A DNA stretch of 64,000 bases from Nitrososphaerota archaeon (GTDB lineage Archaea > Thermoproteota > Nitrososphaeria > Nitrososphaerales > Nitrosopumilaceae), in NCBI GenBank assembly GCA_016201435.1, contig JACQCT010000014.1, positions 124,001-188,000 of the forward strand. Direction: 5' to 3'. Of the stretch, positions 11,597 to 54,030 are shown piece by piece; the stretch's first letter is position 1; every line of letters begins with the position of its first letter. A program made the translations under genes and the position numbers. The notes under the pieces are model-generated. The model did no database searches. It was not told where the DNA came from and saw only the letters and a program-made list of their open reading frames with translations.

Positions 11597-11773
11597 TCAA
11601 GACTCTGCCCAATTCGTACCGCACTTTGTGCATTTTCCCCTCATTCCATTATATCTCGGTTCCCAATACAATTCAATCTCTGAATTACAAACAGGGCATT
11701 CTGTCTTCTCATGATCATTTACGTTCTCATGTACAATACAGTTGCAGCTGGAAGAATAGATTTGTATCTTCAA
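11597..11773 (-). CDS. 58-residue zinc-ribbon protein ending NWAES
   Basis: Read from TTG 11773, which has a GAGG ribosome site about seven bases upstream, to TGA 11597. The C-terminal half is a four-Cys ribbon: ECPVCNSEIEL, then YNGMRGKCTKCGTNWAES as the last residues. The same C-terminal pattern appears in the mini-proteins at 31522-31650 and 54031-54150, so this is one member of a small family. It probably binds one zinc; role unknown. Confidence 0.65.
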   Translation of the reverse strand: MKIQIYSSSCNCIVHENVNDHEKTECPVCNSEIELYWEPRYNGMRGKCTKCGTNWAES

Positions 11774-19499: not shown

Positions 19500-20564
19500 T
19501 TAATCATCCGTTACATCACTAATTGTATCATCAGTTGGATTGAACATCATCCACATATCAGCTGCCTCCTGAGTTTCATTATCAAAGTGTTCTGGTTTGT
19601 ACCATGTAGAACCAGATGCGAAAAAGTCTGCATTATAGAATGTTCCAAATAATGGTCCAAGCCTGATTTTTTCAGAATCTATAAAGTCTTTAGTGAAAAA
19701 TTTGTCTCGAAGGCCTAGCTCATAACCATAGATCTCTACATGAAAAGCATGTTTTGCCTTTCTTTTTGATTTCTTTGTTTGCTTTCCTTTCTGTTCAACT
19801 GATTTCTCATATCTATCAAATTCATCATAAACTGGACCACTTGGAGCTCGTGCAGGACATTCTACAATTACAGGCCCTTGAGAATTTGCAACTCTGGAAA
19901 GCAAAGCTGCCCATACTCTGTTTTGTTGTTCAGGAGTTCTATCTGATATTGTAATATCGGAGGACCACACAAAAGCTACTTTCTTGTGGGAAAGCAAAGC
20001 TCCAGGACTCATACCAACTATAATAATTTTAGTTGGCCTTTTTAGATCATCTGGATTGTGAATCCATATTGTTCTTACTTTAGTTACTTCGTCTTTGAGT
20101 AAACCCATTGCAGAAAAGTTCTTTGTAATTAGATAGTCTCGGTATTTGTTGGAACCTAATAGAATCTGCCTTAAATCGTGTGCATGTGTCTTTGCCTGCT
20201 CGTCTGATTGGGCATTGATGATGAGTTCCATTCCTCTACAGTCTTTTATTGCATGCCATAGAGTAATCAGAATACAAATAGATGAGATTCCTATCTTCTG
20301 TGATTTTAATACAAGAATCTTGTTATGCTTGAAATGATCATTCCATAATTTGAATTGAAGTGGAGCTAGCTTGTCTATTTGTTCTCTTGTAAGAGAATGA
20401 AAAAATGGTTTCTCTAATTCATCATAGAACTTTTGGAGATCATTAGGTATATCCTGAGATAGTTTTAGAGATTTTTCAAACAATAATTTTTCTAGTTTTT
20501 CATATTCAGAATTGCCAGTATCAAGATCATCATACATTGATATGTTACGCCAAGGATCTTTCAT
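19500..20564 (-). CDS. Terminase large subunit-like ATPase
   Basis: A 354-residue protein resembling the ATPase half of a viral DNA-packaging motor. ILVLKSQKIGISS (83-95) fits the deviant Walker A of terminases (LKARQxGIST type), KKVAFVWSSDITISDR the Walker B region, and VIVECPARAPSGPVYDEF the coupling segment. Full terminases run to 450-600 residues with a C-terminal nuclease; here that part is short and ends in an acidic tail, so nuclease activity is doubtful. Its ATG overlaps the stop of the upstream gene by four bases, as expected for a small/large subunit pair. Confidence 0.65.
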   Translation of the reverse strand: MKDPWRNISMYDDLDTGNSEYEKLEKLLFEKSLKLSQDIPNDLQKFYDELEKPFFHSLTREQIDKLAPLQFKLWNDHFKHNKILVLKSQKIGISSICILITLWHAIKDCRGMELIINAQSDEQAKTHAHDLRQILLGSNKYRDYLITKNFSAMGLLKDEVTKVRTIWIHNPDDLKRPTKIIIVGMSPGALLSHKKVAFVWSSDITISDRTPEQQNRVWAALLSRVANSQGPVIVECPARAPSGPVYDEFDRYEKSVEQKGKQTKKSKRKAKHAFHVEIYGYELGLRDKFFTKDFIDSEKIRLGPLFGTFYNADFFASGSTWYKPEHFDNETQEAADMWMMFNPTDDTISDVTDD

Positions 20565-20992
20565 TTTGAATTAGGTTGGATTGTGTCTGTTAGAAATTTA
20601 GATTTCATCTCGGCTTGTTTTTCCATTACTGCTCTTGTCTTGTTGTAAGCTCCTGCTAGATATGGTTGCATTTCTGCGATAGTTTTAGCTGCAAGTATTC
20701 TTTTGAAAGGATCCTCTATACTATGATAATTATCCCACATTTCACGTTCGATGACAAGCAGTGTATCTATACGAGCCATGTGTTGTTCCAGAAATCCAGT
20801 CTGGGCTATCTCCATGGAGCGTTTGTCTACGCTATTCTTTATTTTGTCAAGTTCTCTATAATATCCAGATGTTGATATTTTATATCCGTGAACTTCGAGC
20901 CATGGAAGTGCCTTTGCAAGTGGTAGTCTCATTATTTGAGTCTGGATGATTAATAATTGTCTGCCATCCATGGCTTGTTTTTTACTTGACAA
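20561..20992 (-). CDS. Putative terminase small subunit
   Basis: A 143-residue, largely helical protein. Its place directly before the large-subunit-like gene with an ATGA overlap is the main evidence. The N-terminal part (LPLAKALPWLEVHGYKIS, then SGYYRELDKIK) could be a helix-turn-helix that reads the packaging site. TTG at 20992 or ATG at 20971 may be the start. Confidence 0.5.
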   Translation of the reverse strand: MSSKKQAMDGRQLLIIQTQIMRLPLAKALPWLEVHGYKISTSGYYRELDKIKNSVDKRSMEIAQTGFLEQHMARIDTLLVIEREMWDNYHSIEDPFKRILAAKTIAEMQPYLAGAYNKTRAVMEKQAEMKSKFLTDTIQPNSK

Positions 20993-21177
20993 ATTTACGA
21001 TCTTCCCATTTTTTTGTCATATTCCATGCCTATGTTGAGAGTCATTTTCTCAGGTTATTCCAAAAGATTACTTGTTTTAGATGTTGTACAATATCTTTGG
21101 ATGAAGGCATTTTGATCAACAATATATTCTAATCTCTCTAGCATACCTGTAAAATTCAATCCAGTACTCCATTATTG
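20993..21177. other. Gap with two tiny frames
   Basis: Between the replication-type ATPase and the terminase pair. A 29-codon frame (21055-21144, minus) and a 16-codon frame (20995-21045, minus) run in the direction of the operon, but both are too short to accept without support. Confidence 0.3.
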
Positions 21178-22647
21178 TCATTCATTCCCTGGCACGATTT
21201 GATACGAATTCAGTTTCGTGGCATCATTTTCTTTTGTTTTATTCGTAAAATCATCCATTTTACTAGCTGAATCGCCATCCCACGAACCCACAAGAGAATA
21301 ACGCTCACCCAATGATTCTAGTTGAGTTTTTAACCAAGTGTCAAATTCTTCTTGTGTAAAGTTTATGCTAGTAGTTTCTAGATCAGAGAACTTTTTTTCG
21401 GTTGGGAAATATTGGTTTTCCCTAGTTGTGTCATCTCTTGTTAGAAATCCATTATTAGCCAGCCAATTGAGAAGCTCTCTTGCCCTGTTTTCACTATAAC
21501 CGCCATTTTTTATAACACTTGAATGTTTTACGATATCTTTTACTGTCACTCCTCTTGATTCTAGAATACAGTTTTCACTGTACAATTTTTTTACTAGAGC
21601 CAGAATTTGCATTTGTTTTACAGAAGTTTTGTTAATCGTTTGTTTGATTGTTTGTCCGGCTATCTCTAGTGCTTCTGTAAAGTCCTCTGGCTTTGCTATT
21701 ATCCAATATGTGCATTCTTTTTCTGTTGAACCAAAATTGTCAACAAGAAAATTCTTCGGTTTATTGTCTTGTAGATATGGCCTGTTTAATCCATGAATAA
21801 ACGCAATAACACAGGTTAGATTGAGTATTTTTGCAAGGTCTCTTCTTATTTCCAAGTGTTTTGGAATGACAGATTCTAGTTTGTGAGCAAACGGGATTAA
21901 AATTCCCTCAGTATGTTGGGCCATTTTCTTTAATTGGTTGAAAAACCTAGTCAATTCTTCAATATTGGTCTCCCATTCATCGTTAGCCTTGATTTTGGAG
22001 TAATCTGATAGTGTATATTTGATAATTCGTTCTGTTTGGATATCTGATTCATCAAGTTCCATCATGAATACCCTGTTAGCTGTCTCTGAATCGATATCGA
22101 ATTTTGTTGCAACTGTTACAAATACGGGAAACCCAGATACAACAAAATCTTTAGGTGTATTTTCTCCTTTTTCTCCCCTTTCCACACATCCAAACTTTAA
22201 GACACCTTCTGTTAGTAGATGTTTCAGTCTTTGAATGGATAGTTGTTTGTCATCATTTACCCGTTCTAATTGTTCAAGCTTGATTATCTTTCCGTTTACA
22301 TTATGCTGTGATCTTTTGAAATGTGCCTCTGTGAAATCAGTATAATCAATCAAGTCATTTTTGAATGGTTGTAATACATTGTTCAGTAAATAGGATTTTC
22401 CAGTACTGGAACTGTTTGATATTATTGCACTTAATCGGAATTTCTTTGGTAGATCTTTTGATACAAAACAGCCGATCAGGGTCTTGATGTTGTTTGATTC
22501 ACCTACTATCTTGCTTGAATATTTTTGTGCTATCGTGTCAAGCAGTTTTGGGTCTTTTGGATTAATTTTGTTCGTAAGTTCCTGATTTTGTGGCACGAAA
22601 GTAGTTTCCGTGGAATCAACCGTTTTTTCGTGGGACGGCTTAGACAA
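21178..22647 (-). CDS. Replication-type ATPase of the integrated element
   Basis: A 489-residue P-loop protein. SNSSSTGKS (77-85) is the Walker A motif, with KIIKLEQLERV as the likely Walker B, a FPVFVTVAT sensor strand and VFMMELDESD. After residue 340 comes a winged-helix-like segment (VKDIVKHSSVIKNGGYSENRARELLNWL). This order resembles helicase-loader or primase-helicase ATPases of viruses and plasmids, without a visible primase domain. It overlaps the upstream small zinc gene by eight bases. Likely job: replication of the element. Confidence 0.55.
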   Translation of the reverse strand: MSKPSHEKTVDSTETTFVPQNQELTNKINPKDPKLLDTIAQKYSSKIVGESNNIKTLIGCFVSKDLPKKFRLSAIISNSSSTGKSYLLNNVLQPFKNDLIDYTDFTEAHFKRSQHNVNGKIIKLEQLERVNDDKQLSIQRLKHLLTEGVLKFGCVERGEKGENTPKDFVVSGFPVFVTVATKFDIDSETANRVFMMELDESDIQTERIIKYTLSDYSKIKANDEWETNIEELTRFFNQLKKMAQHTEGILIPFAHKLESVIPKHLEIRRDLAKILNLTCVIAFIHGLNRPYLQDNKPKNFLVDNFGSTEKECTYWIIAKPEDFTEALEIAGQTIKQTINKTSVKQMQILALVKKLYSENCILESRGVTVKDIVKHSSVIKNGGYSENRARELLNWLANNGFLTRDDTTRENQYFPTEKKFSDLETTSINFTQEEFDTWLKTQLESLGERYSLVGSWDGDSASKMDDFTNKTKENDATKLNSYQIVPGNE

Positions 22648-22834
22648 CTTGCATTTCCTCCAATTTAAGATTAAATCCCAAAGTGAATTTACCGTCTAAC
22701 CAATCGCAATATTCCTCATCATTGAGTAGACCAGATTTTTTAACTTCAGCCTTGCATTTGATACAGTTAATATCAAAAATATTCCAATGGTTGACGTTGA
22801 GACAGACAGGTAAAATTGATTCATTCTTACTCAT
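22640..22834 (-). CDS. Small zinc-binding protein in replication operon
   Basis: A 64-residue protein with C-x(4)-H and INCIKCKAEVKK Cys residues that may bind zinc. The ATG at 22834 is chosen because it overlaps the preceding stop by eight bases (ATGAGTAA), a coupled start; an upstream ATG at 22846 is less likely. Its 3' end overlaps the ATPase start in the same way. Confidence 0.55.
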   Translation of the reverse strand: MSKNESILPVCLNVNHWNIFDINCIKCKAEVKKSGLLNDEEYCDWLDGKFTLGFNLKLEEMQVV

Positions 22835-22967
22835 CTTGCTCTTCAAGTCCTTTTAGAAGTAATCTACGATAAACTAATGATCTAGGCAAGTCATTACGAA
22901 CATTCTCTATTTTTTTTACCAAGTTTATTGGGAGAGAAAGAACTACAGTAGTGCTTTTTTTTACCAT
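22827..22967 (-). CDS. 46-residue ribbon-helix-helix regulator
   Basis: From ATG 22967 (or 22976, three residues longer) to TAA 22827. The pattern KKSTTVVLSLPINLVKKIE then LPRSLVYRRLLLKGLEEQ is a complete ribbon-helix-helix unit. It opens the operon that contains the zinc protein and the replication ATPase and stands next to an inverted-repeat operator shared with the divergent winged-helix gene. Confidence 0.7.
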   Translation of the reverse strand: MVKKSTTVVLSLPINLVKKIENVRNDLPRSLVYRRLLLKGLEEQDE

Positions 22968-22992
22968 TACATACATTAGAATTAATACTTAT

Positions 22993-23031
22993 TATGTCGG
23001 TATGTACGACATAGTATTAGATTGCGACATA
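22993..23031. promoter_or_regulatory. TATGTCG inverted repeat in divergent regulator promoter
   Basis: TATGTCG at 22993-22999 and CGACATA at 23007-23013 are exact reverse complements with a seven-base spacer; a third CGACATA lies at 23025-23031, overlapping the first codons of the plus-strand gene. The position between two divergent regulator genes fits a lysogeny-type switch operator. Confidence 0.6.
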
Positions 23032-23864
23032 GCCCCAAAACAGAGTTTCATGAACTCATATTGCGGAGATTGGCACTGAATCCCGAATTTGAGGGTAAAT
23101 ATTCATCATTTAAAGGCCTTACCAGATATCAAATATCAAGAGGGTTTGACGAGAACGATAAGAGGATCCCACAATCAACTATACTAGATTACACTAAGGA
23201 ATTAGAAGAGAATGGATGTGTAAGGCGTATTTTAAAAACCAAGCTTGGAACTGGGAAATACAGAATAACCTATGATCTTACTACCCTGGGCATGATACGA
23301 TGGTTTCATTATCTGAACAATAATCCTGACATCTTGAAGAGAATAGGCCTAAACAAAATCAGAGCCGTTGTTACAAAATCTAAGAGGCTTTTACCATTCA
23401 TATCAGACAACTGGTCAGAACTCAATAAAATATTCAAAAACGAGTTAGTGGTGACCATGACATTACTATGGGTATCAGATATCGAGATAAGTTACTATGA
23501 TAGTAAAACTACAGGTTCTCTTGCTTCAGCACCTCTTAACGCTGGATACCTAAAGATTCAGATAATCAACCAGATAGATCCCCCTAGATCTAAAAAAATT
23601 ATGAGAGACGCAGTGTTTGAGAAAAGGAATCGTAATTTGGCAGAGTTATTTACATTTGTTTACCTTTACACACTAGACAGGAAACAACCCATACAAGATA
23701 AAAAACTCTATTATGAAAACAGGAAAAAATTACTTTCTCTAATAAAATCTCATCCTCCTACTTATAATGCATATTTGAAATTCATAGAGCAGTTAAAGAC
23801 TGAGATAGGAATGGCAGTGGATTACATTAAAGAAATAGAACTCGTACTAAAAAACATCAATTAG
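23022..23864 (+). CDS. Winged-helix regulator-like protein of the element
   Basis: A 280-residue protein. Residues 20-95 look like a winged helix: GLTRYQISRGF, STILDYTKELEENGCVRRI and the wing GTGKYRITYDLTTLG. The remaining 180 residues are helical and unfamiliar. TTG at 23022 is the only start codon before the domain. It is divergent from the ribbon-helix-helix gene and shares its operator region, and is convergent with the integrase after six bases. Confidence 0.6.
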   Translation: MRHSPKTEFHELILRRLALNPEFEGKYSSFKGLTRYQISRGFDENDKRIPQSTILDYTKELEENGCVRRILKTKLGTGKYRITYDLTTLGMIRWFHYLNNNPDILKRIGLNKIRAVVTKSKRLLPFISDNWSELNKIFKNELVVTMTLLWVSDIEISYYDSKTTGSLASAPLNAGYLKIQIINQIDPPRSKKIMRDAVFEKRNRNLAELFTFVYLYTLDRKQPIQDKKLYYENRKKLLSLIKSHPPTYNAYLKFIEQLKTEIGMAVDYIKEIELVLKNIN

Positions 23865-23870
23865 AAACGA

Positions 23871-25055
23871 TTATTTCTTATTTTTCCTATAATTTACAAC
23901 GCCTTCCTTTACCATATCTCTCTTTATTTGGCCAATAATTTCTTCTTTAAGAGAAGCCATTAGGTCGGAATTGTTGATTTTTAACGCATTAGAGTAAGAT
24001 TGTTGTGCTTGTATTTCCTTCGTCTCATCTAATTCCCTTCTTAGTTCTTCCACTTGTTGCTTTAGTTTGTCCTTGTCAGACAGTTCTTTTTTGAGAATTT
24101 TATTCTCGGCATCTTTGCGTTCAGTATCATCTATTGTTAGATTGGTTATGTGTATTTTAAACTCGTTAAAGAGCACATCAACGTCGGGATCGTGATAGGT
24201 ACTGTCTAATGGTATATCCCTGACTTCATGCGACATTAGTTTCTCTGTAAGACTTCTATTTCCTAATTTGTTATTTTTTAGAATAGTATTGAATCGCTTT
24301 CTAAAGGCGTGATCCATTGCCTTGTTAAATCTTCTACCCACTTTTTCCCGTGAAACTGACTTGTTTACTATTTTTCGTATAAGATTCTTCAAGGCTCCAA
24401 CGGTTGAATGTTCGGCCTTTAATCTTCCAATTGCATACTTTGATCTAAACAACGGGCTTTCAGGTGAGATATATTCACCGTCTCTTTTCCTCTGAGTGAT
24501 GTAACCATCCATAGCCCTTGAAGCTTCAGGTGTAAGAAAGCCAAGGTATTCAAATTTACTGTCAGGATAAAACGTGATCACCTTGCAACCATCTGTTAAG
24601 TCCATCATGTGTTTTAATTTTAATTCGGGCACAGCACCGATTCTGGCACCAGTAGAGGCCAAAAGATGGACCAATGATATTAATTTCAAACTCTTTGCAA
24701 GCTCTAACATCTTTTGAATGTCTTCTGTGGTGTATGCATTACCACCAGCTTTTTTCACTTTGGCTGGGTAAAGCTTGTGTATTTTCTTCCAATTTACCAA
24801 AACATCATTCATAATGAAAAAGTGTTCAACGCCTTTCATGTAGGTAGATACTGAATTTGGAGAGACCTGTTTTTTGAGATCCATAACATAGTCTTCGATC
24901 ATTTCTTGGATCTTTTTGTGTTCTATGGTAAGCAGTGCATCTCCTGATTTTAGTTTGTAGTATTTTCGAAATCGCTCTAACCCAAATGTATAGGTACCCA
25001 GTGAAGCTTTGGAATCTATTCCCTCTTCGAATAGCCTTAAGCTTCTATCGCTCAT
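23871..25055 (-). CDS. Tyrosine recombinase/integrase
   Basis: A 394-residue integrase. An N-terminal SAM-like DNA-binding part (15-95) precedes the catalytic domain with R138 (STGARIG), H249-x2-R252 (HAFR), H276 (LMSHE) and the nucleophile Y287 (DSTYHDPD). After residue 310 there is a coiled coil of about 45 residues and a basic end, an extension beyond the usual catalytic domain. It would integrate and excise the element to its left. No attachment-site repeat was identified by eye. Confidence 0.88.
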   Translation of the reverse strand: MSDRSLRLFEEGIDSKASLGTYTFGLERFRKYYKLKSGDALLTIEHKKIQEMIEDYVMDLKKQVSPNSVSTYMKGVEHFFIMNDVLVNWKKIHKLYPAKVKKAGGNAYTTEDIQKMLELAKSLKLISLVHLLASTGARIGAVPELKLKHMMDLTDGCKVITFYPDSKFEYLGFLTPEASRAMDGYITQRKRDGEYISPESPLFRSKYAIGRLKAEHSTVGALKNLIRKIVNKSVSREKVGRRFNKAMDHAFRKRFNTILKNNKLGNRSLTEKLMSHEVRDIPLDSTYHDPDVDVLFNEFKIHITNLTIDDTERKDAENKILKKELSDKDKLKQQVEELRRELDETKEIQAQQSYSNALKINNSDLMASLKEEIIGQIKRDMVKEGVVNYRKNKK

Positions 25056-25104
25056 ACCAGTCTATAGTGTCTTCTGTATTAAAACACCTTTTTGGTACCT
25101 TACC

Positions 25105-30671: not shown

Positions 30672-31481
30672 CTATTCATGTTTTAATTTACTTTCTTGGA
30701 AAACACTAGAATTATCCCAGCAGTATTTGAAATAGTCAAGGCACCATTCATGAAAAGCAGAATCATCACTGTAGAACATTTCGCTCATATCAAGCTCGCC
30801 TCCAGATTTAGGAAATGTGACACATGCTTCTTTTTCATTTAATATAACTGCAACTTGCACATTATTTCTCATCTTTCTTTCAATGAGACCCTGTTCTATG
30901 AGTTTTTTAAAACCAAGTTTTTCAAGAACCTGTTTTCTTTCTTTTGGAATTATAGCAGATTCTGAAAATATTGAATTTACTTTTACTCCCTTATTGACGT
31001 TCTTTACTAGTGGTTCTAAAAGATCAGAGTCATATGGAACTTCAAATAAAATATTATATATGTAATCATTAGAATTTTTGTAAATATTCTTCCACTGTTC
31101 TAGTACTTTGATAAACCCTTTGATATGTTGGCCTTTCTCAAGTGCCCCAATTCTTTGAATAAATTTTTGTGGAAGATCTCCAAAATCGTGATCCCTAAAG
31201 TATTTTTTGTTTTGTGACAAAAATGCCAGCGAAGGAATTTGTGCACACATTGTTTTACCGTAGGTTGTAATACTATAATCACCATCTGCATCTTTTACTA
31301 TTAGGTTGGCTTTTACGAGGCGTTCAAAATTTCTGTATACCTCAGGCACTGTAGCATCAAGAGCTTTCGCAATTACAGACACCTTGGACTTTGTGTCTAA
31401 AAGTCTTAAGAGTATTCCAAGGCGTTGTTGGCTTGCTAACTCTAAAAAATCATCTGCCGTTTTTTCGTAATCGTAATTCAC
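30672..31481 (-). CDS. FilR1-type HTH regulator, first copy
   Basis: A 269-residue regulator. Residues 8-75 form an ArsR-like winged helix (LELASQQRLGILLRLL, VSVIAKALDATVPEVYRNFERL, wing DADGDYSITTYGKT). The rest matches the FilR1 middle domain (DUF1724 type), with FIQRIGALEKGQHIKGFIKVL, KVNSIFSESAIIPKER and a closing FHEWCLDYFKYCWD. It is paralogous over its full length to the protein at 53185-53985. In both places a mini zinc-ribbon gene stands just upstream on the same strand. Confidence 0.8.
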   Translation of the reverse strand: MNYDYEKTADDFLELASQQRLGILLRLLDTKSKVSVIAKALDATVPEVYRNFERLVKANLIVKDADGDYSITTYGKTMCAQIPSLAFLSQNKKYFRDHDFGDLPQKFIQRIGALEKGQHIKGFIKVLEQWKNIYKNSNDYIYNILFEVPYDSDLLEPLVKNVNKGVKVNSIFSESAIIPKERKQVLEKLGFKKLIEQGLIERKMRNNVQVAVILNEKEACVTFPKSGGELDMSEMFYSDDSAFHEWCLDYFKYCWDNSSVFQESKLKHE

Positions 31482-31521
31482 AAACTACCATTACACTATT
31501 AGAATCTAAATCTTACTTGCC

Positions 31522-31650
31522 TTACGATTCAGGCCAATTTGAACCACAACTTGGGCATGTACCCCTCAAGCCCCTATATTGACGTACAAAAATTATGAGT
31601 GCCTTAGAGCACCCACATCCCTGACATTCTACATACCCATATCGATTCAT
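31522..31650 (-). CDS. 42-residue zinc-ribbon protein ending NWPES
   Basis: From ATG 31650 to TAA 31522, 40 bases upstream of the FilR1-type regulator. Four ribbon Cys come as CQGCGCSK and TCPSCGSNWPES, linked by VRQYRGLRG. The same RG-x-RG-x-C-x2-CG-x-NW-x-ES ending is found at 11597 and 54031. Likely a zinc-dependent partner of the regulator; this is inferred from the repeated pairing. Confidence 0.7.
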   Translation of the reverse strand: MNRYGYVECQGCGCSKALIIFVRQYRGLRGTCPSCGSNWPES

Positions 31651-31757: not shown

Positions 31758-32471
31758 ATGTGCGGATTCGGTTATGTATACAGAGAAGAAGAACAATATC
31801 AGAAATCTGATGAACTACTAAAACTAACAAGTTCTAATGAACTATTAGAACGAATTAGAGATAAACCGATTACGGAGATTACATTTGTAGAGGGGTACAC
31901 AAATTGTTGTGTCGGTATAGTAGACATAGTAAACTCTACGGGCATTACAGCCAAGCTAGTTAATGGCCAACTATGCAAATACTATAGTACTTTTCTTAAT
32001 ACGATGGCTGATATTGTAAGAGATTTTGGTGCAAAAGTGTTAAAAAATATTGGTGACAGTCTTTTGTATTATTTTCCTGAAACTTCGTTTACAGATAAAA
32101 AAACAGCTTTTAGGAATGTACTTGAATGCAGTCTGGCAATGATTGACAACCACACTGCACTTAATCAAAAAATGTATAACGAGGATCTACCAGATGTAAA
32201 TTACAGAGTCAGTGCAGATTATGGAAATATACTCATTGCAAGTTCTTTTAATTCTTCCATTGAAGATATTTTTGGCCCGACAGTAAATCTTTGTGCAAAG
32301 ATTAATTCTATTGCAAAACCAAACAAAATTGCCATTGGGGGGGATCTATATCTAAATGTAAAAGATTTGGATGGATATGACTTTGATTTGATCAAGACAT
32401 ATTCATCAGGATTAAAACTAGAGTACCCCGTTTATTCCATAATACGAAGTAAAGTCAAAAAATGGTTTTAA
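31758..32471 (+). CDS. Class III adenylate/guanylate cyclase
   Basis: A 237-residue single-domain nucleotide cyclase. Metal-binding Asp residues are in VGIVDIVNSTG (D56) and NIGDSLLYYF (D100), followed by YRVSADYGNILIA and the FGPTVNLCAKINSIA segment that holds the transition-state region. No membrane segment or sensor domain is attached, apart from a 40-residue N-terminal helix. A second, larger cyclase-domain protein is encoded at 48824-50257. Confidence 0.85.
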   Translation: MCGFGYVYREEEQYQKSDELLKLTSSNELLERIRDKPITEITFVEGYTNCCVGIVDIVNSTGITAKLVNGQLCKYYSTFLNTMADIVRDFGAKVLKNIGDSLLYYFPETSFTDKKTAFRNVLECSLAMIDNHTALNQKMYNEDLPDVNYRVSADYGNILIASSFNSSIEDIFGPTVNLCAKINSIAKPNKIAIGGDLYLNVKDLDGYDFDLIKTYSSGLKLEYPVYSIIRSKVKKWF

Positions 32472-32719: not shown

Positions 32720-34858
32720 ATGGGTTTGGACAAAACATCATTTCTGCTAGTGTTATTTGTGTTTTTAATTTCTGTTACTGTTTTATCCGTCAATACTAAA
32801 TCGGTTTACGCAAATCCATCAGGTACAGACACCTGGGGACTGTTACCAAATCAAAACTATGTAGATTTATCAATTAACCAAGCTTGCGGATCCGGCAATG
32901 ATAACGATCTTGATGGAATATGTAATAGCTGGGAGGACGGAACTAATGGACCTGGTCTCCACATCAGAATTAGTCAGGGGGGTATAAATTACAGCTATGA
33001 CTTGAGCTGTAATACAGCCGCAACCTATTCCACGGATCCTACTGGATACAGCGTATGTCCTTCAGCTAACCACAAAGATGTCTATGTGGAGATTGACGCG
33101 ATGCAGGGACACTCGATCAGTGCAACTGCTATAGGTGACGTTGCTAACGCATTTAATCAATCGCCTGTAACAAATGGTGACAGCACAACTGGTGTACATT
33201 TGCATGTTCAATATGGTGAGAACCCCAGCACATCAAGTGAAGACACCGGTGTTCATGTTACTAGCCTAAAGGTCGCAACTGCACTTTGGAATACAAATAC
33301 CGCACCCAATTATGGGTATTGGGTTGGGAAAGAAAATTTCTTCGGCACAATTGCTGAAAGGAATACAGCGAATGCTGATCATATTACATATTGTGTTCAC
33401 AGTGATGGCACATCAGAAACGTGGCATGACTGCGGTACTGCAAAGAGACAATCCTTCCATTACGCTATGTCTATTCATAAACAGTATGAATCTTCTACAT
33501 CATCAGGTTATGCTGAGATAGGCGGAAATGATTTCGTAATGTCACTAGGAGCTTTGGCTACTGTAGGTACAGATGAAATGGAAGCTGATTTCATGCATGA
33601 ACTTGGTCATAACCTTGGTCTTTACCATGGCGGGGTAAGATCTCCAGATGTGAACGCGAATGGTAAATTTGACGCAACCGACGATAACGCTGATAATTGC
33701 AAGCCAAACTACATCAGCATAATGAATTATGAATATGAATTCAGATCATCAGGTGCCCAGTGCAGGGTTCTGGATTACTCTAATGTTCTCTTGAATCCTC
33801 TCGATGAAAATAATCTTGTCGATAGCGCTGTGGGCAGCGATCCCTACCCAAATCCTGTTCCAGATCCACCTGGAGGTGCGACCGGAACTTGTAATAATGC
33901 TGCTCATAACGGTCAAGAACAACCAATTTGGTACTCAAATCCTTCGGGGGCTAAAACACCAGCAACAACTGGAACAAGTCCTGGTGCGACAGTTGACTGG
34001 AATGGTGATGGTATTTCAGGAGCAACATATAATCAAAACCTTAACAACATACCATCCATTACAGGATGCAGCTCCACTTACAAGTCTATACTGATAGGAC
34101 ATAATGACTGGACTTCAGGTGATATGAACTATAACTTCAGATCTTCTGCTCTGTATTCAAGCAATGATAACAACACGGCTGATACTGCTTTTTGTGATAA
34201 TTGTCTCTATGTGACTGAGGGTAATCAAACATCGACGCCACCGCAAAACTTGCAGGCCGTGGCAGGTAATGCACAAACATCACTAAGCTGGACGGCTCCA
34301 GCAAACAACGGTGATTCTCCAATCACAGGCTACAAAATATACAGATCAATTACTACTGGAACAGAAACACTTCTGACAACAATTGGAAACGTCACCTCAC
34401 ACACTGATATCGGACTTACAAACGGTGTGACATACTTTTACATAGTAACCGCTATCAACTCTGCAGGGGAGTCTGTAAACTCTGATGAGGCAAGTGCCAC
34501 ACCTGTTACTATTCCATCAGCACCGAATACGTTTATTGATAACACATCTAACCCATCCCAAGGTACTGTAACATTTTCTTTCCATTCGGACATGCCTCAA
34601 AGTACTTTTGAATGTCAATTAGATAGCGGAGGTTTCTCGACGTGTACAAGCCCGCAATCATATTCTGGTTTAGTCCCGGGACAACACATGCTACAAATCA
34701 GGGCCATTAACAACGGTCAGATGGATTCAACTCCTGCTTCATCTTCAGTGCAGGTTAGCTCACCACCGACTGACTTGCAGTATGTAAACATTGGTTTAGT
34801 TACTGCAGTATTAGCAATAACAAGCATCATCTTGGCAATAGTAGCTCGCAGAAGATAG
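32720..34858 (+). CDS. Exported metzincin protease with FnIII domain and C-terminal anchor
   Basis: A 712-residue surface protein. A signal peptide (5-32, ending VYANP) is followed by a metallopeptidase domain with HELGHNLGLYH (H293, E294, H297, H303), the metzincin zinc motif, and a Met-turn ISIMNYE. Residues about 510-590 are a fibronectin type III domain (PPQNLQAV, SLSWTAPANNGDSPITGYKI) and 595-680 an Ig-like repeat. The end has one membrane span (INIGLV-like segment YVNIGLVTAVLAI) and RRR, which would anchor it with the protease outside. The subtilisin gene starts one base after its stop, so the two proteases form an operon. Confidence 0.85.
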   Translation: MGLDKTSFLLVLFVFLISVTVLSVNTKSVYANPSGTDTWGLLPNQNYVDLSINQACGSGNDNDLDGICNSWEDGTNGPGLHIRISQGGINYSYDLSCNTAATYSTDPTGYSVCPSANHKDVYVEIDAMQGHSISATAIGDVANAFNQSPVTNGDSTTGVHLHVQYGENPSTSSEDTGVHVTSLKVATALWNTNTAPNYGYWVGKENFFGTIAERNTANADHITYCVHSDGTSETWHDCGTAKRQSFHYAMSIHKQYESSTSSGYAEIGGNDFVMSLGALATVGTDEMEADFMHELGHNLGLYHGGVRSPDVNANGKFDATDDNADNCKPNYISIMNYEYEFRSSGAQCRVLDYSNVLLNPLDENNLVDSAVGSDPYPNPVPDPPGGATGTCNNAAHNGQEQPIWYSNPSGAKTPATTGTSPGATVDWNGDGISGATYNQNLNNIPSITGCSSTYKSILIGHNDWTSGDMNYNFRSSALYSSNDNNTADTAFCDNCLYVTEGNQTSTPPQNLQAVAGNAQTSLSWTAPANNGDSPITGYKIYRSITTGTETLLTTIGNVTSHTDIGLTNGVTYFYIVTAINSAGESVNSDEASATPVTIPSAPNTFIDNTSNPSQGTVTFSFHSDMPQSTFECQLDSGGFSTCTSPQSYSGLVPGQHMLQIRAINNGQMDSTPASSSVQVSSPPTDLQYVNIGLVTAVLAITSIILAIVARRR

Positions 34859-34859
34859 T

Positions 34860-37800
34860 ATGAAATGGCAAGCTATCATTCTTGGCACAATAGTAGCTTG
34901 TGGAATTGTTCCTATACAGTATTCTTCTATCCCTTTCATGTCACCACCCACTTTGATACCACAAGCTTATGCTGCAAATGCAACAGGTTCAATCACAATG
35001 GCTATGACAAGCAGTGTTGCAACTACATTACCCGTTGTAAATCCTACTAATGACATAGCAGTAAACCCAACAACCAACACAATCTATGTAACTTTTCTAG
35101 GTGCTCCCAATTCAACCTCCGTAATTGATGGTGCAACAAATACTGTCACAGCTACAATACCAATTGGATCTAGTTCTAATCATGTGGCAGTAAACCCAAC
35201 AACTAACACCATCTATGTAACTAATGCCAGTAAAATCTCCGCAATTAATGGTACAACAAATACTGTCACAGCTACAATACCAATTGGATCTAGTAGTTCT
35301 AATTTGAATTATGTGGCAGTAAACCCAACAACTAACACCATCTATGTAACTAATGCCAGTAAAATCTCCGCAATTAATGGTACAACAAATACTGTCACAG
35401 CTACTTTAGATGCTGGATCTGATTTGAATGGTATAGCAATAAACCCAACAACTAACACCATCTATGTAACTGTCTCCAATTCTTATAAAATCTGGGTAAT
35501 TGATGGCACGATAAATGCTTTCACAGATACAATATCAGTAGGAAATTTTCCTCAAAGTGTAGCAGTGAACCCTGTAACCAATACCATCTATGTGACTACA
35601 TCTACCAATTCAATTTTCGTAATTGATGGCACAACAAATACTGTCACAGCTACAATACCAATTGGATCTGGTCCTAATCATGTGGCAATAAATCCTATTA
35701 CCAATACCATCTATGTAACATCATATGACAATACAATTTATGTAATTGATGGAACAACAAATACTGTCACAGCTACAATACCAATTGGAAGTGTTCCTCA
35801 AGGAGTAGCAGTGAACCCTGTAACCAATACCATCTATACAGCTAATAGAAATCTCAATACAATATCCGTTATTAATGGCGCAATAAACAATTGGTCATCT
35901 GGGGAGAAAATTTCTATAACCTTGATTGATCCTGATGCAAACAAAAATAACGCAATTGCAGAACACCTCAACGTGTATGATCCAACAGTAGAAAGGATTG
36001 CTACAATGAGGATTGGTGCTCCGTTCACATTGACCGGTGGGAGTGCGGATTTCTTTAACTTTAATAATAGAACAGTTACAGGTTCAGGTTTTGAATCATC
36101 TAGTATTGGTGCGTCAGTGCGTGTATTAACCCAAGAACATACTGCAATAACTGACAAGGCGCAAGATGAATCAATTAGTGGACGGCCTGTTTACACTATA
36201 GGTTCATCACCTGCTACAATCAGAAACCATGGCGGCATGATTATAGATCTGAAAACAACAATGCAGACTCTGAGAGATACCATTCACGATACTGCAGTAG
36301 GCAACCCAGAGAAATTCAAAGGATTCAACTTCCTTAACTTAGATCTGAGATCATTTCAACTTCTGAGCCATCATGCATTAGGAGTTTCAATAACATCGGT
36401 GACAGTATATTTGGCACACAACCCTGGCGGTCCAATACTTGATTCAAGTGGTAATTTGTCACCTGGTTTGAACATAGTCCCGATCGCAAACACAACTTCG
36501 TTGCAGGACTTCATCAACCTTAATGTAACAAGCAATAAAGTTACTAATTCCTCACAGGTAAACAAGGACATCTTTGAAATTCCAAAGACAGACAACATCG
36601 GTTTGATCTTCCAGTTTACAACAAATGGCGAGGTGGTCCTTGGTCCAAACCAAGGATACCCAATAGTGTCTGACTTTTTCTCAATTGGTTTAACGGATTT
36701 TGATGTAACAAATGATCAAAGAATAAACAATGCAATTTACAGATTTGAGCTTGAAGAGACTGGTAATAACACAAACATCTTTACTGGTTCAAACACGTAT
36801 GTTATGCTCAACCAGCTTAACATCTTTGATCCAAACACCTACTCTACCCTGAAGACACACGGCACTGAAGTCAAGTTTGCCGCAATTCAAGACATGCGCC
36901 AAGTAAAGGGCAATGCTCCTCAAGTCACATACTTGGATCGAGGTACCAATGGCATTAATACAATAATAGCTGCACAACAAGATATACGATCACATAATGG
37001 TATAGTAAAATTTGATCAAAAGAAATACAACATTGGTGATGCTGTTGGGATAACACTTTGGGATAGTGACTTGAATGTCGAAAATGATCTTTTGGACATT
37101 TACACAAGTGTTCCTCCATCAGGAAATTTGGCAACTGATCCACAAGATGTTACAGTAGATACAATTGGCTTGCGCGGTCTTGGAACAAACTCCTATGGAG
37201 TCTCTTTTGGAAAACTATTGGAAATAGTATTTGGCAACTATGACATAAGATGGTCTAACTCGATCATCCCAGGCGATGTAAATCACACATCTTCATGTAC
37301 ATTTGCAGCAGGTGACGTTAACTCGCCTACTGCGACAACACTGGGAAAAGCAACTAGCTTGTCAGCTACTGGCTTTACCCTAGTTGAGACTGGTCCATCC
37401 ACTGGCATCTTCAAAGGTGACTTTGAATTCCCAGACGAACTTTGCCAGTCAGGTGTTGTAGTCTCTACTACGGGGTTGGACATCAAGGCCAAGTACTATG
37501 ACTTTACAGATGGCTCTGGAAGATTTGCTGAGAAATCAGACTCTGTAATGGGTTTTGGTTTTGTTGACACACTGAAAATTGTCCCAGAGTTTGCCACTTT
37601 TACGACAATAAATCACGTCAAACCTCTTCCTAATTCACCGGACGAACCGGTCCCAGTAATAATATTTTACAGAAATTCAACAGTCATCGGAGCAGGCAAG
37701 GATGAATTAAGGAATCTAGGATTGACCCCAACCAAAACTATCGATATACTTCCCTCTGTTTCCCTAGATTTAACGCGTACTCAACTGGACGGAATATCAA

Positions 37801-40028
37801 ACAAATACGCCGTAGCCATTTTTCGAGATCAAACAGTCTATGCATCTGGAATTCAGACCGACAACACTATCAAAGCAAATTCCGTATGGCCAAGCTATAC
37901 AGGCAATGGCATAAATATTGCCATCCTAGATTCAGGAATCGCAGAACAACCATTACTACCACCAGATCTTTGTCATACCACTTTTAGTGTTGGCGATTGT
38001 TCTGATGAGGTTGGACATGGTACTCATGTAACTGGGATTGCATTGGCACGTGGATCAACAACCTCCCCAGCTTCAACACCTCTAATAGGTGTTGCACCAC
38101 AGGCATCTCTCATAGTTGTTAAGGTGACTCACCTAATTAACAATTTATCGCAGGGTCAGTATTCAAATGTAGGTGCTGGCATAGATTGGGCAATTCATTA
38201 TGGCGGTGCAGATGTAATAAATTTAAGCCTTGAAAGTGCAGCTACTTTTCACGACAACGAAAATTGTGATGTTGATCCGATTTCAAGTAATGATGTTGGA
38301 GGCATTTACCCATATATTTACGCAGCATTAGAACATGGCGTATCTGTTGTTGCTGCAAGTGGCAACCAAGGAGATATTGCCTCCCCAGCTTGTATAAGCA
38401 AGGTCATCGCGGTAGGAGCGGTTGATAGTAGTTTCCAACTTTTCAATGATGGCGTTCACTCGTCTGGTACTGGTGAAGCCATGAGGGCACATGGACTGGT
38501 TGCTCCAGGGGTAAACATAATGTCGACTTGGCCTTTCTCTCCTATTCCACCAGGTAACACATCAGGTATGAAATCAGAAAGTGGTACTTCGATGGCGGCA
38601 CCAGCAGTAACTGGAACCATAGCACTGATGAAGCAGAAAAATGTTGCATCTGGCAACCCACCTTTGGACCCTCAAGATATATCCAATATTCTATTCTTTT
38701 CTGCGTGTAAATTTTCCTGCGGCATTCCCGTTCTACCAGATCAAAGATTTGGCAACGGAATGTTAGATGCCTCTGCAGCTGTAAACTTGGCTGCACAGTC
38801 ATTACCTCTAACTCATAGAACTCATACGGACTTAACAGTTAGTCAGCCGTCTGCTTTTGTTGGTGATGATATTACCGTTATGGCGACTGTATCAGATATT
38901 GAACTCGTTAAAATTAAACCTGTAGGTTTTGATAATCTTGTCTTTTTTGATACACATCATCATTACGATTATTTTACTGGTAAAACTTGCAGCGATGATC
39001 TTGTTAACAAACAACTAAAATGTACGATACATTGGAAACCAGGAATTGCAGATAATTTCCAAGTTTTTGCCGTATTTTTAGGTGATGGTGGTTTTCACCA
39101 TGACATGAGTTCTGGAAGCAAATCTGTTAATGTTATAATTCATCCTCCTCCTACGACTAAAACTACTGTAACTGCAAGCAAAAGTTCCATAAACAAAAAA
39201 GACACTACTGAGATTATTGTAAAGGTATCGCCAGATCCTGGTGTAACACCTATTACTTCAGGGAGTGTGACATTCCAAACCACCGGATTATCAGGTGGAT
39301 GGATTGATCCACCATCACCACCATGTAGTCCATCCGGTACCGACTTTGTATGTCATACAACTTATCATGCTCCAGACTTGAAAGGAATTGTTACAATAAA
39401 GGCTACATTTTCTGATACGCTTGGTGCACATCTTGGAAGCGATGGGCATCAAGATATCCAAGTTACTGATTGCATGTTTTCAACATTTGCTTTTGGAAGC
39501 GTGCTCGAGCCACAAGTTAAAGCCATCAGAGATTTCCGAAACCATAATTTACTTCAAACCAAAGACGGTTCAAGTTTCATGATTGTTTTCAACGCATGGT
39601 ACTATTCGTTCAGCCCATATGTTTCTGATTTAGAAAGAAGCCAACCATGGTTTAAACAAATGGTAATGACGTCAACATATCCACTTTTAGATATTCTTAC
39701 AGCTGCTGGCAAGGTATACTCTGTGCTGCCAGGAGAATACGGCTCGTTATCATCTGGCCTTGTCGCTAGTTCCTTGATAGGCGGGGTCTATTTTGGCCCA
39801 CTTGCTTTATCATCACGACAAGTAAGGAACCACAAATACAATTACAAACTGGTTGCCGGAATATTTTTCAGTATTCTTGCAGCAACAATTTGCTCAGTCA
39901 TTCTAGGAAATCAAATAGCATTGATGGTAACAACACCCATTTTTGTTATATCCTCAACTGCAATCTTTGCTACACTATCAACAAAGGCATTAGTAATCAT
40001 TTACAAGAAGATAAAGAGCCACATATGA
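34860..40028 (+). CDS. YVTN-propeller/subtilisin surface protein
   Basis: A 1722-residue exported protein. After a signal peptide (1-38) come seven TNTIYVT-type repeats (about 45-345), enough for one seven-bladed propeller. Residues 345-960 are beta-rich modules with two ETGxxTxIF signatures. Residues 1015-1300 are a subtilisin domain with D1024 (ILDSGI), H1053 (GHGTHVTG) and S1244 (GTSMAAP). Ig-like modules follow, and the last 150 residues hold three or more membrane spans. Expected to sit in the cell envelope and cut proteins outside. It follows the metzincin gene by one base. Confidence 0.88.
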   Translation: MKWQAIILGTIVACGIVPIQYSSIPFMSPPTLIPQAYAANATGSITMAMTSSVATTLPVVNPTNDIAVNPTTNTIYVTFLGAPNSTSVIDGATNTVTATIPIGSSSNHVAVNPTTNTIYVTNASKISAINGTTNTVTATIPIGSSSSNLNYVAVNPTTNTIYVTNASKISAINGTTNTVTATLDAGSDLNGIAINPTTNTIYVTVSNSYKIWVIDGTINAFTDTISVGNFPQSVAVNPVTNTIYVTTSTNSIFVIDGTTNTVTATIPIGSGPNHVAINPITNTIYVTSYDNTIYVIDGTTNTVTATIPIGSVPQGVAVNPVTNTIYTANRNLNTISVINGAINNWSSGEKISITLIDPDANKNNAIAEHLNVYDPTVERIATMRIGAPFTLTGGSADFFNFNNRTVTGSGFESSSIGASVRVLTQEHTAITDKAQDESISGRPVYTIGSSPATIRNHGGMIIDLKTTMQTLRDTIHDTAVGNPEKFKGFNFLNLDLRSFQLLSHHALGVSITSVTVYLAHNPGGPILDSSGNLSPGLNIVPIANTTSLQDFINLNVTSNKVTNSSQVNKDIFEIPKTDNIGLIFQFTTNGEVVLGPNQGYPIVSDFFSIGLTDFDVTNDQRINNAIYRFELEETGNNTNIFTGSNTYVMLNQLNIFDPNTYSTLKTHGTEVKFAAIQDMRQVKGNAPQVTYLDRGTNGINTIIAAQQDIRSHNGIVKFDQKKYNIGDAVGITLWDSDLNVENDLLDIYTSVPPSGNLATDPQDVTVDTIGLRGLGTNSYGVSFGKLLEIVFGNYDIRWSNSIIPGDVNHTSSCTFAAGDVNSPTATTLGKATSLSATGFTLVETGPSTGIFKGDFEFPDELCQSGVVVSTTGLDIKAKYYDFTDGSGRFAEKSDSVMGFGFVDTLKIVPEFATFTTINHVKPLPNSPDEPVPVIIFYRNSTVIGAGKDELRNLGLTPTKTIDILPSVSLDLTRTQLDGISNKYAVAIFRDQTVYASGIQTDNTIKANSVWPSYTGNGINIAILDSGIAEQPLLPPDLCHTTFSVGDCSDEVGHGTHVTGIALARGSTTSPASTPLIGVAPQASLIVVKVTHLINNLSQGQYSNVGAGIDWAIHYGGADVINLSLESAATFHDNENCDVDPISSNDVGGIYPYIYAALEHGVSVVAASGNQGDIASPACISKVIAVGAVDSSFQLFNDGVHSSGTGEAMRAHGLVAPGVNIMSTWPFSPIPPGNTSGMKSESGTSMAAPAVTGTIALMKQKNVASGNPPLDPQDISNILFFSACKFSCGIPVLPDQRFGNGMLDASAAVNLAAQSLPLTHRTHTDLTVSQPSAFVGDDITVMATVSDIELVKIKPVGFDNLVFFDTHHHYDYFTGKTCSDDLVNKQLKCTIHWKPGIADNFQVFAVFLGDGGFHHDMSSGSKSVNVIIHPPPTTKTTVTASKSSINKKDTTEIIVKVSPDPGVTPITSGSVTFQTTGLSGGWIDPPSPPCSPSGTDFVCHTTYHAPDLKGIVTIKATFSDTLGAHLGSDGHQDIQVTDCMFSTFAFGSVLEPQVKAIRDFRNHNLLQTKDGSSFMIVFNAWYYSFSPYVSDLERSQPWFKQMVMTSTYPLLDILTAAGKVYSVLPGEYGSLSSGLVASSLIGGVYFGPLALSSRQVRNHKYNYKLVAGIFFSILAATICSVILGNQIALMVTTPIFVISSTAIFATLSTKALVIIYKKIKSHI
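35040..35880 (+). repeat. Seven tandem propeller repeats, partly near-identical in DNA
   Basis: The coding region of the propeller repeats the unit TNTIYVT seven times at roughly 120-base spacing. Several stretches are identical at DNA level, for example ACTGTCACAGCTACAATACC occurs at about 35141, 35261, 35640 and 35764. The near-identity suggests recent duplication or gene conversion of blades. Confidence 0.8.
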
Positions 40029-40150
40029 GATTTCATGTAAGTCACGGTGTATTTTCTGGATGAAATCATTAGAAAGATTAATTCAAGTTTTGGATTTACA
40101 GAATTCTGACTTTATAAAGATTTGTTGCCATAAATGTAAGTAATGATTAA

Positions 40151-41950
40151 GTGTATTCCGTACCAGATATACCATATGAACATGGACTTGGAGATGGTCT
40201 TCTGAATTTAGATTATTCACGTTTTTTCCAGAAATTTAAAGTTGGAAAAGAATCACGTATATTCCTTGCATCGATTTTAATCCTAGCAGGATTTTCTTTG
40301 TTTGTTCCAATTCAATTGGCGATGGCTACTGTAACAGTTACTTGGGATTTTAGCACAGGACATAGCACTAACGATGGTGGTGTTAATGCACTTGTTCCTC
40401 GTGTATTTTTTACTGTAAATGACACCAGCCTGATAAATGGTAAACAAGACACCATATCCGTTAAAGTCAACTCCACTTCAGACCAGAATGGAATTACGCT
40501 TACTATACCTGAAGATCCTGGAGATACAGGAATTTTCACTAATACAAATCTTATTTTCACAAATGGTCCAAGTCAATTCCATCTTAGTGATACTGCAATC
40601 GTCAATCTTAATGATTCATCAGGGAACATAGATCCAACTCAGGTAGATTTTGTACCTAATTCTGCTTTGCCTTTTGGTTTATTGATTTTTTCAACATCGG
40701 ATCCTGCAGGCATTTCATTTTTTGTCAAAGAAACCGGAAACAATACAGGAATTTTCAGTAATCCCGTAACGTTTACCAGTGGTCCTTCGGTTACTAACAG
40801 TTCGATTCAGGCAAATAACGGAGACATAATTAGTATTTTTAACCAAGATACAGGGCAATTTCAAAACTGGCTAATAATTCCAAATCCAAATTCTGCATTA
40901 GATGCGCTACCTGCAAATGAGGGGGATAATGTTACCGCAATATACAATGGAGTCAAGGACCAAACCAGATTAGATGCAGCTTCAGGAGGTGGAGGGGGAG
41001 GTGGTGGACTCATACAACCCGGTTTAGTGCTCGACATACTAGCAGCAATCGGTGGTAGTCCCTTCATTGTCTCACCTCCATCATTTGGGGGAGCTTACTA
41101 TCATTATTCTGATGGCCTGACAATTACACAAGGTACAACAATGACAACTTTTGACACATCAAAGTACAATCAAGAAATTCCTAAACAAGTTATGATAGAG
41201 GGACAAAAAGTCAATATGACCTTTAAGACATTTGAGTCATACAACCCAACTGCTGTAATTCACATGGGATTGTACATCATACCAAGAGGCCAAGACATGT
41301 TAACAACAAATAGTATCGCCTCTATAGTATATGATAAGAATTCTCCCGTGGAAGTCAATGACCCAAATCACATACTGTCAAACGCCTCGGTATCTTCTAC
41401 TTCTGATGGTAAATTCCAATATACCCAATTCTCATTTGTTCCAACAAAATCATATGACAAGATGTCATTTCTTGTCAGAGCTTGGAACGATCACCTGTAC
41501 TCAACTGATGTAAGGGTTCACGATGAGATTATCCAACTTCCATCTCCCAAAATCTTGCCTACTGGTGTTTTTATGTATGATAACTTTAACGATTTACAAG
41601 CAGCGTTAGAAAAGGACAAATTTTACAAGTCACCGATAATGGCTCACATTCATAGTACGACAGATGTATTCAGTTCGACCGATGCTGGTCATCTCTATTG
41701 GTTATATGATACCATAAATCATACAGTAACTTTGGTAATTGAAGACAAAAATGATAACGAGCTATATTCATACAAAGGAACACTTGATCCATTTGTCCAA
41801 GATAAAAAAGGTGATTATGGATTTATGCATTTTACTGTCAAACAGTTGAATAGGGAGGATGAACAACAAGAAAAACAAGCTATGGAAATTGAAGCGGCCA
41901 AGGCATTGTTTTTGGCATTAGAAAATGGCATGAATTTTGGAAATCAGTAA
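40151..41950 (+). CDS. Exported beta-rich surface protein
   Basis: A 599-residue protein, start GTG 40151. A hydrophobic signal (about 38-60) is preceded by an unusually long 35-residue N-terminal stretch. Two copies of a beta module carry GDTGIFTNTNLIFTNGPSQ and ETGNNTGIFSNPVTFTSGPS, the ETGxxTGIF signature that also occurs in the subtilisin protein upstream. A run of eight Gly at about residue 280 separates this from a C-terminal part of unknown fold. It lies 122 bases after the subtilisin gene on the same strand and probably belongs to the same surface assembly. Confidence 0.65.
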   Translation: MYSVPDIPYEHGLGDGLLNLDYSRFFQKFKVGKESRIFLASILILAGFSLFVPIQLAMATVTVTWDFSTGHSTNDGGVNALVPRVFFTVNDTSLINGKQDTISVKVNSTSDQNGITLTIPEDPGDTGIFTNTNLIFTNGPSQFHLSDTAIVNLNDSSGNIDPTQVDFVPNSALPFGLLIFSTSDPAGISFFVKETGNNTGIFSNPVTFTSGPSVTNSSIQANNGDIISIFNQDTGQFQNWLIIPNPNSALDALPANEGDNVTAIYNGVKDQTRLDAASGGGGGGGGLIQPGLVLDILAAIGGSPFIVSPPSFGGAYYHYSDGLTITQGTTMTTFDTSKYNQEIPKQVMIEGQKVNMTFKTFESYNPTAVIHMGLYIIPRGQDMLTTNSIASIVYDKNSPVEVNDPNHILSNASVSSTSDGKFQYTQFSFVPTKSYDKMSFLVRAWNDHLYSTDVRVHDEIIQLPSPKILPTGVFMYDNFNDLQAALEKDKFYKSPIMAHIHSTTDVFSSTDAGHLYWLYDTINHTVTLVIEDKNDNELYSYKGTLDPFVQDKKGDYGFMHFTVKQLNREDEQQEKQAMEIEAAKALFLALENGMNFGNQ

Positions 41951-42007
41951 AGATAGATGGTACTCTTTATTTTTTATGTTCACATCTTAATGAATTACTT
42001 AATAATT

Positions 42008-42928: not shown

Positions 42929-43015
42929 GGGTATTCGTAAAAGTCCATCACAATGGTACTTGTAAAAAATCTTGTGTCATTTATTAAACAAATTGAGTTT
43001 GAGCGTTAACAGATT

Positions 43016-44322: not shown

Positions 44323-44415
44323 TATGCTAACACATAATCAAAATAAAACATGTTTCTTTTTCAAATTATTTTCATTGCAGAATTTACAATAGTTATGAGA
44401 TTTGTTGTCAAAATT

Positions 44416-53184: not shown

Positions 53185-53985
53185 CTATTCTTTGAGTTTT
53201 CCTTCTTGAAAAGCACCTGAACCATACCAACAGTATCTAAAATAATCTAGGCACCATTCTTGGAAAAGCTGGTCTTTGCCGTAGAACATTTCTCTCATAT
53301 CTGCGTCCCCATCAAGTGTAGGAAAGACAACACATGCTTCCTTTTCATTTAAAACAATGACTACACTGACATTTTTTTTCATTTTTCTTTCAACTAGCCC
53401 TTTCTCTAAAAGACTTTTCATGCCAAGTTTGGCCAAAAGTTCTTTTCTTCCTTTTGGCACTATAACAGATTCTGAGAAAATATAATTTAGTTTAACGCCA
53501 TGTTTTACTTTGTTAAGAAGCGGCTCAATTAGATCAAGAGGCACCTCGGTAAAAATTTGGTAAATAAAATTATCAGCATTTTTGTATATAGACTTCCACT
53601 GTTCTAATACTTTGACAAAACCTTTTACATGCTGACCTCCAGATAATGCACCAATCCTTTGAATGAATTTCATTGGGATATCTCCAAAATCATGATTTTC
53701 AAAATATTTTCTATTTTTGGACAAGAAGAGCAATGAAGGTACCTGAGTACACATGGTCTTGCCATAAGTAGTGAGATCATAATATCCATCTTTGTCCTTC
53801 TTTATCAAACCAGCATCAGATAGTCGCTCAAAATTTCTATGAACTTCCTGAACTGTTGCACCCAACTCCTTTGCCATATTTGAGATCTTTGTTTTTTTCA
53901 AAAAAAGATTAAAGATTATGTTTAGTCTTTGTTCGCTTGCAAGTTCTAAAAAGTCATTTGCGGCATTCTCATAATTATTTTCCAT
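53185..53985 (-). CDS. FilR1-type HTH regulator, second copy
   Basis: A 266-residue paralogue of the regulator at 30672, alike from end to end: LELASEQRLNIIFNLF, VQEVHRNFERLSDAGLI winged helix, then FIQRIGALSGGQHVKGFVKVLEQW and FQEWCLDYFRYCWY. The C-terminal FilR1-type domain may bind a ligand. Like its paralogue it stands 46 bases downstream of a mini zinc-ribbon gene. Confidence 0.8.
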   Translation of the reverse strand: MENNYENAANDFLELASEQRLNIIFNLFLKKTKISNMAKELGATVQEVHRNFERLSDAGLIKKDKDGYYDLTTYGKTMCTQVPSLLFLSKNRKYFENHDFGDIPMKFIQRIGALSGGQHVKGFVKVLEQWKSIYKNADNFIYQIFTEVPLDLIEPLLNKVKHGVKLNYIFSESVIVPKGRKELLAKLGMKSLLEKGLVERKMKKNVSVVIVLNEKEACVVFPTLDGDADMREMFYGKDQLFQEWCLDYFRYCWYGSGAFQEGKLKE

Positions 53986-54030
53986 ATGCAGATTTTATAA
54001 AGTATGAATCTAAATCTTACGTGTATAAAT

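Follow-up and report, generated by a model that had tools for sequence, protein, structure and literature searches.

CPxCG-related zinc finger micro-proteins are described as having two Cys/His pairs 7–40 residues apart, at least one CPxCG, CxxCG or CPxCx motif, and a length below about 70–100 aa (PMC2253796). One of them, Brz of Halobacterium salinarum, is a small CPxCG protein that is encoded directly upstream of bop and controls bop transcription (PMC2253796). Some proteins of the CPxCG type reportedly do not bind zinc (PMC11241148). Among archaeal regulators, FilR1 of Methanosaeta (Methanothrix) harundinacea carries a C-terminal REC domain at 276–446 and is phosphorylated by FilI, and the consulted part of that report names no zinc ribbon partner for it (PMC3991700), unlike the regulators described below.

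The window analysed in this study is a stretch of 64,000 nucleotides from a Nitrososphaerota archaeon of the Nitrosopumilaceae, whose genome has 1.84 Mb in 66 contigs with an estimated contamination of 8.9%. It contains the following features.

11597..11773, minus strand: third ribbon of the family, 58 aa, NWAES ending, without an adjoining regulator or cyclase
30672..31481, minus strand: regulator 1, 269 aa, GTG start; predicted ArsR/TrmB-like winged helix and FilR1_middle-like C-terminal part; ribbon-linked clade
31503..31510, minus strand: TATA-like box TTTAGATT in the spacer between ribbon 1 and regulator 1, first base 29 nt ahead of the regulator 1 start codon
31522..31650, minus strand: mini zinc ribbon 1, ORF of 42 aa, CxxCG ... 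CPxCG, C-terminal NWPES
31758..32471, plus strand: predicted class III nucleotidyl cyclase-fold protein, 237 aa, divergent from ribbon 1 (PF00211, E=1.6e-11)
53185..53985, minus strand: regulator 2, 266 aa; core orthologue clade
54007..54014, minus strand: TATA-like box TTTAGATT in the spacer between ribbon 2 and regulator 2, first base 29 nt ahead of the regulator 2 start codon
54031..54150, minus strand: mini zinc ribbon 2, ORF of 39 aa, NWPES

The preliminary description of this DNA had noted two NWPES ribbon and regulator pairs, each on one strand, with regulators that are paralogous over their full length. Both points were confirmed. The spacers measure 40 nt (ribbon 1 to regulator 1) and 45 nt (ribbon 2 to regulator 2), and the regulators share 64% identity in an end-to-end alignment of 264 columns. 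The ribbons are 53% identical to each other, and the NWPES codon pattern occurs twice in the whole window, in both cases in a ribbon, against 0.06 expected.

The same description called the regulators FilR1-type, of which only a sub-threshold similarity remains. Copy 1 matched PF08350 (FilR1_middle) with 24.6 bits against a Pfam cut-off of 27 and copy 2 gave no match, while 7 of 23 relatives matched at E<0.01 (best 2.8e-5). The likeness to FilR1 and other PF08350 regulators lies in an ArsR-related winged helix and in the C-terminal part that comes after it. A profile search found no REC domain in the window regulators (266–269 aa); therefore, unlike FilR1, they are not two-component response regulators. 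They are predicted to carry an N-terminal ArsR/TrmB-like wHTH: HVO_A0261_N matched all 23 relatives at E<0.01, with scores below the cut-off in the window copies, and the predicted regulator structure had a mean pLDDT of 64 and about 85–92 over residues 21–70, so that only the wHTH was usable. The best Foldseek matches were to the TrmB/TrmBL2 group, but the top match, TrmBL2 (E=7e-5), had 13% identity and a TM-score of 0.18 to a model that is confident in its wHTH part only; the top matches, with TM-scores of about 0.2, were not relied on.

The ribbons fit the definition of a CPxCG-type micro-protein and are predicted to bind zinc. Ribbon 1 has the pairs CQGCG...CPSCG and ribbon 2 CLCCG...CQKCG, and at 42 and 39 aa both lie within the length range; no Pfam or NCBIfam family matched above threshold. 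They resemble the haloarchaeal CPxCG micro-proteins (Brz, and HVO_0758 and others of Haloferax volcanii) in having less than 70 aa and two CxxCG/CPxCG-like knuckles, and they adjoin regulators as Brz adjoins the gene that it regulates, directly upstream (PMC2253796). They differ from them in that the family is largely restricted to Nitrosopumilaceae, has a fixed C-terminal WPES or FPLE tail and recurs beside regulator and cyclase genes.

The invariant tail, which ends at the stop codon, also raises the idea of an amino-group carrier whose C-terminus is modified, as in LysW, whose terminal Glu carries the substrate. Weak profile matches to LysW chains (E 0.016 and 0.88) point the same way, but they cover the ribbon incompletely, in the region of one Cys pair. 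NWPES ends in Ser rather than Glu, and no lysine or arginine biosynthesis genes were seen among the ribbon neighbours. The ribbon thus has neither the C-terminal Glu nor the biosynthetic neighbours of LysW, and we consider this role very improbable.

The ribbons are real genes under purifying selection, because dN/dS stayed below 1 (about 0.05–0.26) in each of the six pairs for which dS was finite; ribbon 2 and its counterpart in the congener G005, for example, gave a dN of 0.067 and a dS of 0.453. Moreover, the distance matrices of ribbons and regulators were correlated (r=0.73, with 0 of 2000 permutations as high), as is partly expected from shared ancestry.

The linkage between the two genes was surveyed in 121 Nitrosopumilaceae genomes, a family to which Nitrosotalea belongs. 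The regulator was found in 87 and the ribbon in 100 of these genomes. A same-strand ribbon lay 0–200 bp upstream of the regulator in 28 pairs, against about 0.015 expected for the 141 regulator matches in the 121 genomes, and nearly all gaps of the linked pairs, counted to the matched regulator start, were 40–77 bp. Other arrangements were seven divergent pairs, usually with the cyclase gene between, and five convergent pairs with an FPLE ribbon. Ribbon and regulator are therefore linked in many genera, and the recurrent unit proposed earlier is borne out. The idea that the pairing is a local curiosity was dropped: the one-ribbon result of a regular-expression search came from loci that were mostly core orthologues, and the coordinate survey showed a wider linkage. 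The preliminary description had also named regulator paralogues without a ribbon as evidence that would speak against the unit. Such paralogues are indeed many, and they leave the association itself standing.

Outside Nitrosopumilaceae, the ribbon was all but absent from the sampled families, with one weak match (E 1.7e-5), whereas the regulator is widespread in the remainder of the order. This distribution makes the ribbon a lineage-specific addition to a regulator family that is older.

Six ribbon matches and three regulators were counted in the source genome itself. C15:25105 and C16:62394, two of these ribbon matches, share their gene order, have near-identical neighbours and are probably strain duplicates; ribbons without a regulator are also present. 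The third regulator (C59), about 40–42% identical, has no ribbon, and about 70 nt ahead of its match start lies the end of a C2H2-type mini-protein of 52 aa. In a sub-clade apart, this mini-protein (WICYRCNLTF...LHNEITKHSAR) ends about 70–190 nt upstream of the regulator match at G000:C59:3953-4111 (L011), G112:C283 (L259) and G102:C89 (L156), and in G085, G092 and G103 a mini-protein with a triple CxxC lies ahead of core regulators. Zinc mini-proteins may recur ahead of this winged-helix regulator family.

The two cassettes had been thought to be copied as a block, which the regulator phylogeny does not support. In a FastTree tree of 136 regulators, with moderate branch supports and some long branches, regulator 1 fell into a mostly ribbon-linked clade (39 rows, support 90; 25 upstream and 6 divergent ribbons) and regulator 2 into the widespread core clade (70 rows, support 93; 3 upstream and 5 convergent ribbons). 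Even without the tree, it is clear that regulator 2 groups with Nitrosotalea orthologues that lack a ribbon, at 79–85% identity. Judged from these sequences, the two regulators belong to two different old clades. Two of the three upstream ribbons of the core clade are those of this genome and of G005, the third being in one other genome, and in a third congener (G043) the ribbon at the position of ribbon 2 is frameshifted. Because only 3 of 70 core-clade rows have an upstream ribbon, two of them in this genus, ribbon 2 looks like a genus-level addition to a core-clade regulator. Since regulator 2 stands in a clade that is ribbon-less save for this genus and one other genome, a simple single-block duplication within the window was rejected. 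Its own orthologue aside, ribbon 2 is nearest to a ribbon of the other clade (G102:C13, distance 0.37), and it may have been derived from a cassette of that kind. The order cassette 1, EF-like domain, MEDS, Lrp/AsnC, PEBP, methyltransferase, cassette 2 is common to the window and G005; both cassettes therefore predate the layout of the window.

Co-transcription of ribbon and regulator as a two-gene operon is unlikely in view of the spacers. In both window copies, a TATA-like box begins exactly at -29 within the spacer, a position that in archaeal promoters fits the TATA box of a leaderless transcript. The box TTTA(G/C)AT recurs ahead of regulators whether or not they have a ribbon. TTTA starting 28–30 nt ahead of a start codon was found for 73 of 134 regulators, against 6–15 in shifted controls but 34 at a shift of 3 nt, the start codon being free to vary among candidates in the count and likewise in the controls. 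Other genes of the same loci had 43 TTTA in -31..-27, where flanking positions would lead one to expect 16.6. The signal ahead of the ribbon is weaker, a pyrimidine-TTA at -30 (ribbon 1) and -34 (ribbon 2) that is missing in some relatives. These data predict that the regulator has its own leaderless promoter, separate from that of the ribbon; a core promoter would account for the spacer, with no need of a shared operon. A lack of co-transcription had been put forward as a reason to doubt the unit; the spacer box predicts such a lack, and the association still stands. Our literature search found no paper on Nitrosopumilus promoters.

An ORF this short, placed directly ahead of the regulator on its strand, could also serve the regulator mRNA as a leader peptide or attenuator. 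This explanation is hardly credible: the TATA-like box of the regulator lies downstream of the ribbon stop codon, selection acts on the ribbon at the protein level, and ribbons also occur divergent, convergent, stand-alone and fused. It was rejected on the dN/dS values and the varied gene orders.

Within 2 kb of the 81 ribbons surveyed in 61 genomes, a gene for a class III cyclase-fold protein is the third recurrent part of the loci. It was present for 50 ribbons, against about 0.7 expected; a cyclase and/or a regulator was present for 59, with both at 12, the regulator alone at 9 and neither at 22. Three gene orders hold ribbon, cyclase and regulator together: the cyclase divergent from ribbon-regulator, the ribbon divergent from cyclase-regulator, and ribbon-regulator convergent with the cyclase. 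The predicted proteins resemble class III adenylate/guanylate cyclases (PF00211) in a domain match above the cut-off, and the metal-binding Asp24 and Asp68 as well as Lys64 and Asp138, the pair for adenine, are invariant in the five aligned. Unlike these enzymes, all five have Lys for the transition-state Arg, and the two FPLE-linked ones have Ser for the transition-state Asn. Because of the Lys replacement, catalysis is uncertain.

The commonest ribbon subtype, FPLE, lies directly upstream of a cyclase gene of about 264 aa on the same strand in most genomes. The FPLE subtype is tied to the cyclase and not to the regulator; therefore the cyclase might be the true partner of the ribbon, which would control or anchor it, the regulator being a downstream reader of the signal encoded nearby by happenstance. 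NWPES loci often carry the cyclase too, and the conserved catalytic residues would fit this reading. However, many NWPES ribbon-regulator pairs, including window copy 2, have no adjoining cyclase, the Arg is replaced in every aligned protein, and a natural fusion of ribbon and winged helix has no cyclase part. We regard a primary cyclase partner as unlikely, though a serious candidate.

This fusion is a protein of about 149 aa, with an ArsR/TrmB-like winged helix followed by a complete NWPES ribbon, in five genomes of genera g7 and g8; its helix domain alone is found in most other family genomes. Of the observations made, it is the one that hints most strongly at a winged-helix protein as working partner of the ribbon. 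The neighbours of other ribbons allow a different view, in which the ribbon acts on its own as a small transcription or RNA-binding factor: it would merely share a promoter region with the regulator genes and be a local switch of the adjacent gene, as with Brz, with no protein contact. Some ribbons adjoin unrelated metabolic and transport genes, such as those for HMG-CoA synthase, a dehydrogenase and a TauE exporter, and the separate promoter-like boxes of ribbon and regulator agree with such a factor. The same partner gene families nevertheless recur in several orientations and orders, and the fusion also speaks against this view, which we consider improbable.

In preference to the cyclase-partner and independent-factor readings, we propose, with about even confidence, that the NWPES ribbon, transcribed separately, is a zinc micro-protein and serves as co-regulator of the adjacent winged-helix regulator. 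With its presumably zinc-bound, folded knuckles and its invariant C-terminal tail, the ribbon would probably bind the regulator or dock next to it, either on DNA or on the basal transcription machinery, and would so alter where or when the regulator acts on its putative DNA targets. In many loci the class III cyclase-fold protein would supply the signal input. The earlier suggestion of a co-factor is thus supported by conservation across genera, the correlated distance matrices and the fusion; conserved linkage and fusion suggest an undescribed regulatory partner protein. We also counted in favour the excess of upstream pairs, the 59 linked ribbons, the three gene orders, the dN/dS values, the Brz precedent and the ribbons that adjoin TFB and Lrp/AsnC genes or a MarR gene. 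Against it stand the regulators that are ribbon-less in most of the core clade and in all sampled families other than Nitrosopumilaceae that have them, the 22 ribbons with neither partner, and the FPLE subtype.

No description of a ribbon-regulator module was found in the literature searched, and searches for zinc ribbon regulators and for nucleotidyl cyclases of Thaumarchaeota gave no papers. Few organisms on Earth are as abundant as the ammonia-oxidising archaea, and to our knowledge little is known about their gene regulation. The link of a conserved micro-protein with regulators and cyclase-fold proteins offers a concrete, testable regulatory module, and it gives a comparative handle on the roles of many archaeal CPxCG micro-proteins. 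More speculatively, and on balance quite unlikely, a cyclase-fold protein (active, or a nucleotide sensor) might act through an interchangeable mini zinc ribbon on the winged-helix regulator, in an undescribed signalling pathway of ammonia-oxidising archaea with the WPES and FPLE subtypes providing wiring specificity. If true, the zinc micro-protein would be the coupling element of that pathway. Gene callers that drop ORFs of less than 50 aa would miss the ribbons.

Some further features were observed around these loci. The flanking order shared with G005 (L290) fits there into about 6.5 kb, while window positions 32720-49000 hold additional genes, including those of large secreted proteins. 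Four family ribbons lie within 7 kb in L287 (G102:C28), beside a MEDS-domain gene and a PKD-repeat protein gene. By eye, window positions 13800-25100 may be an integrated element, with a tyrosine-recombinase-like protein (23871-25055), a terminase-like protein (19500-20564) and several unknown ORFs, and two closely similar patatin-like proteins lie on the same strand at 9758-10624 and 57684-58904. Near regulators and ribbons there recur small proteins that look exported and have a VCGDxxC-like motif, at window positions 10695-10910 (L013:2196-2411), at L011:3674-3952, and in L250 and L271.
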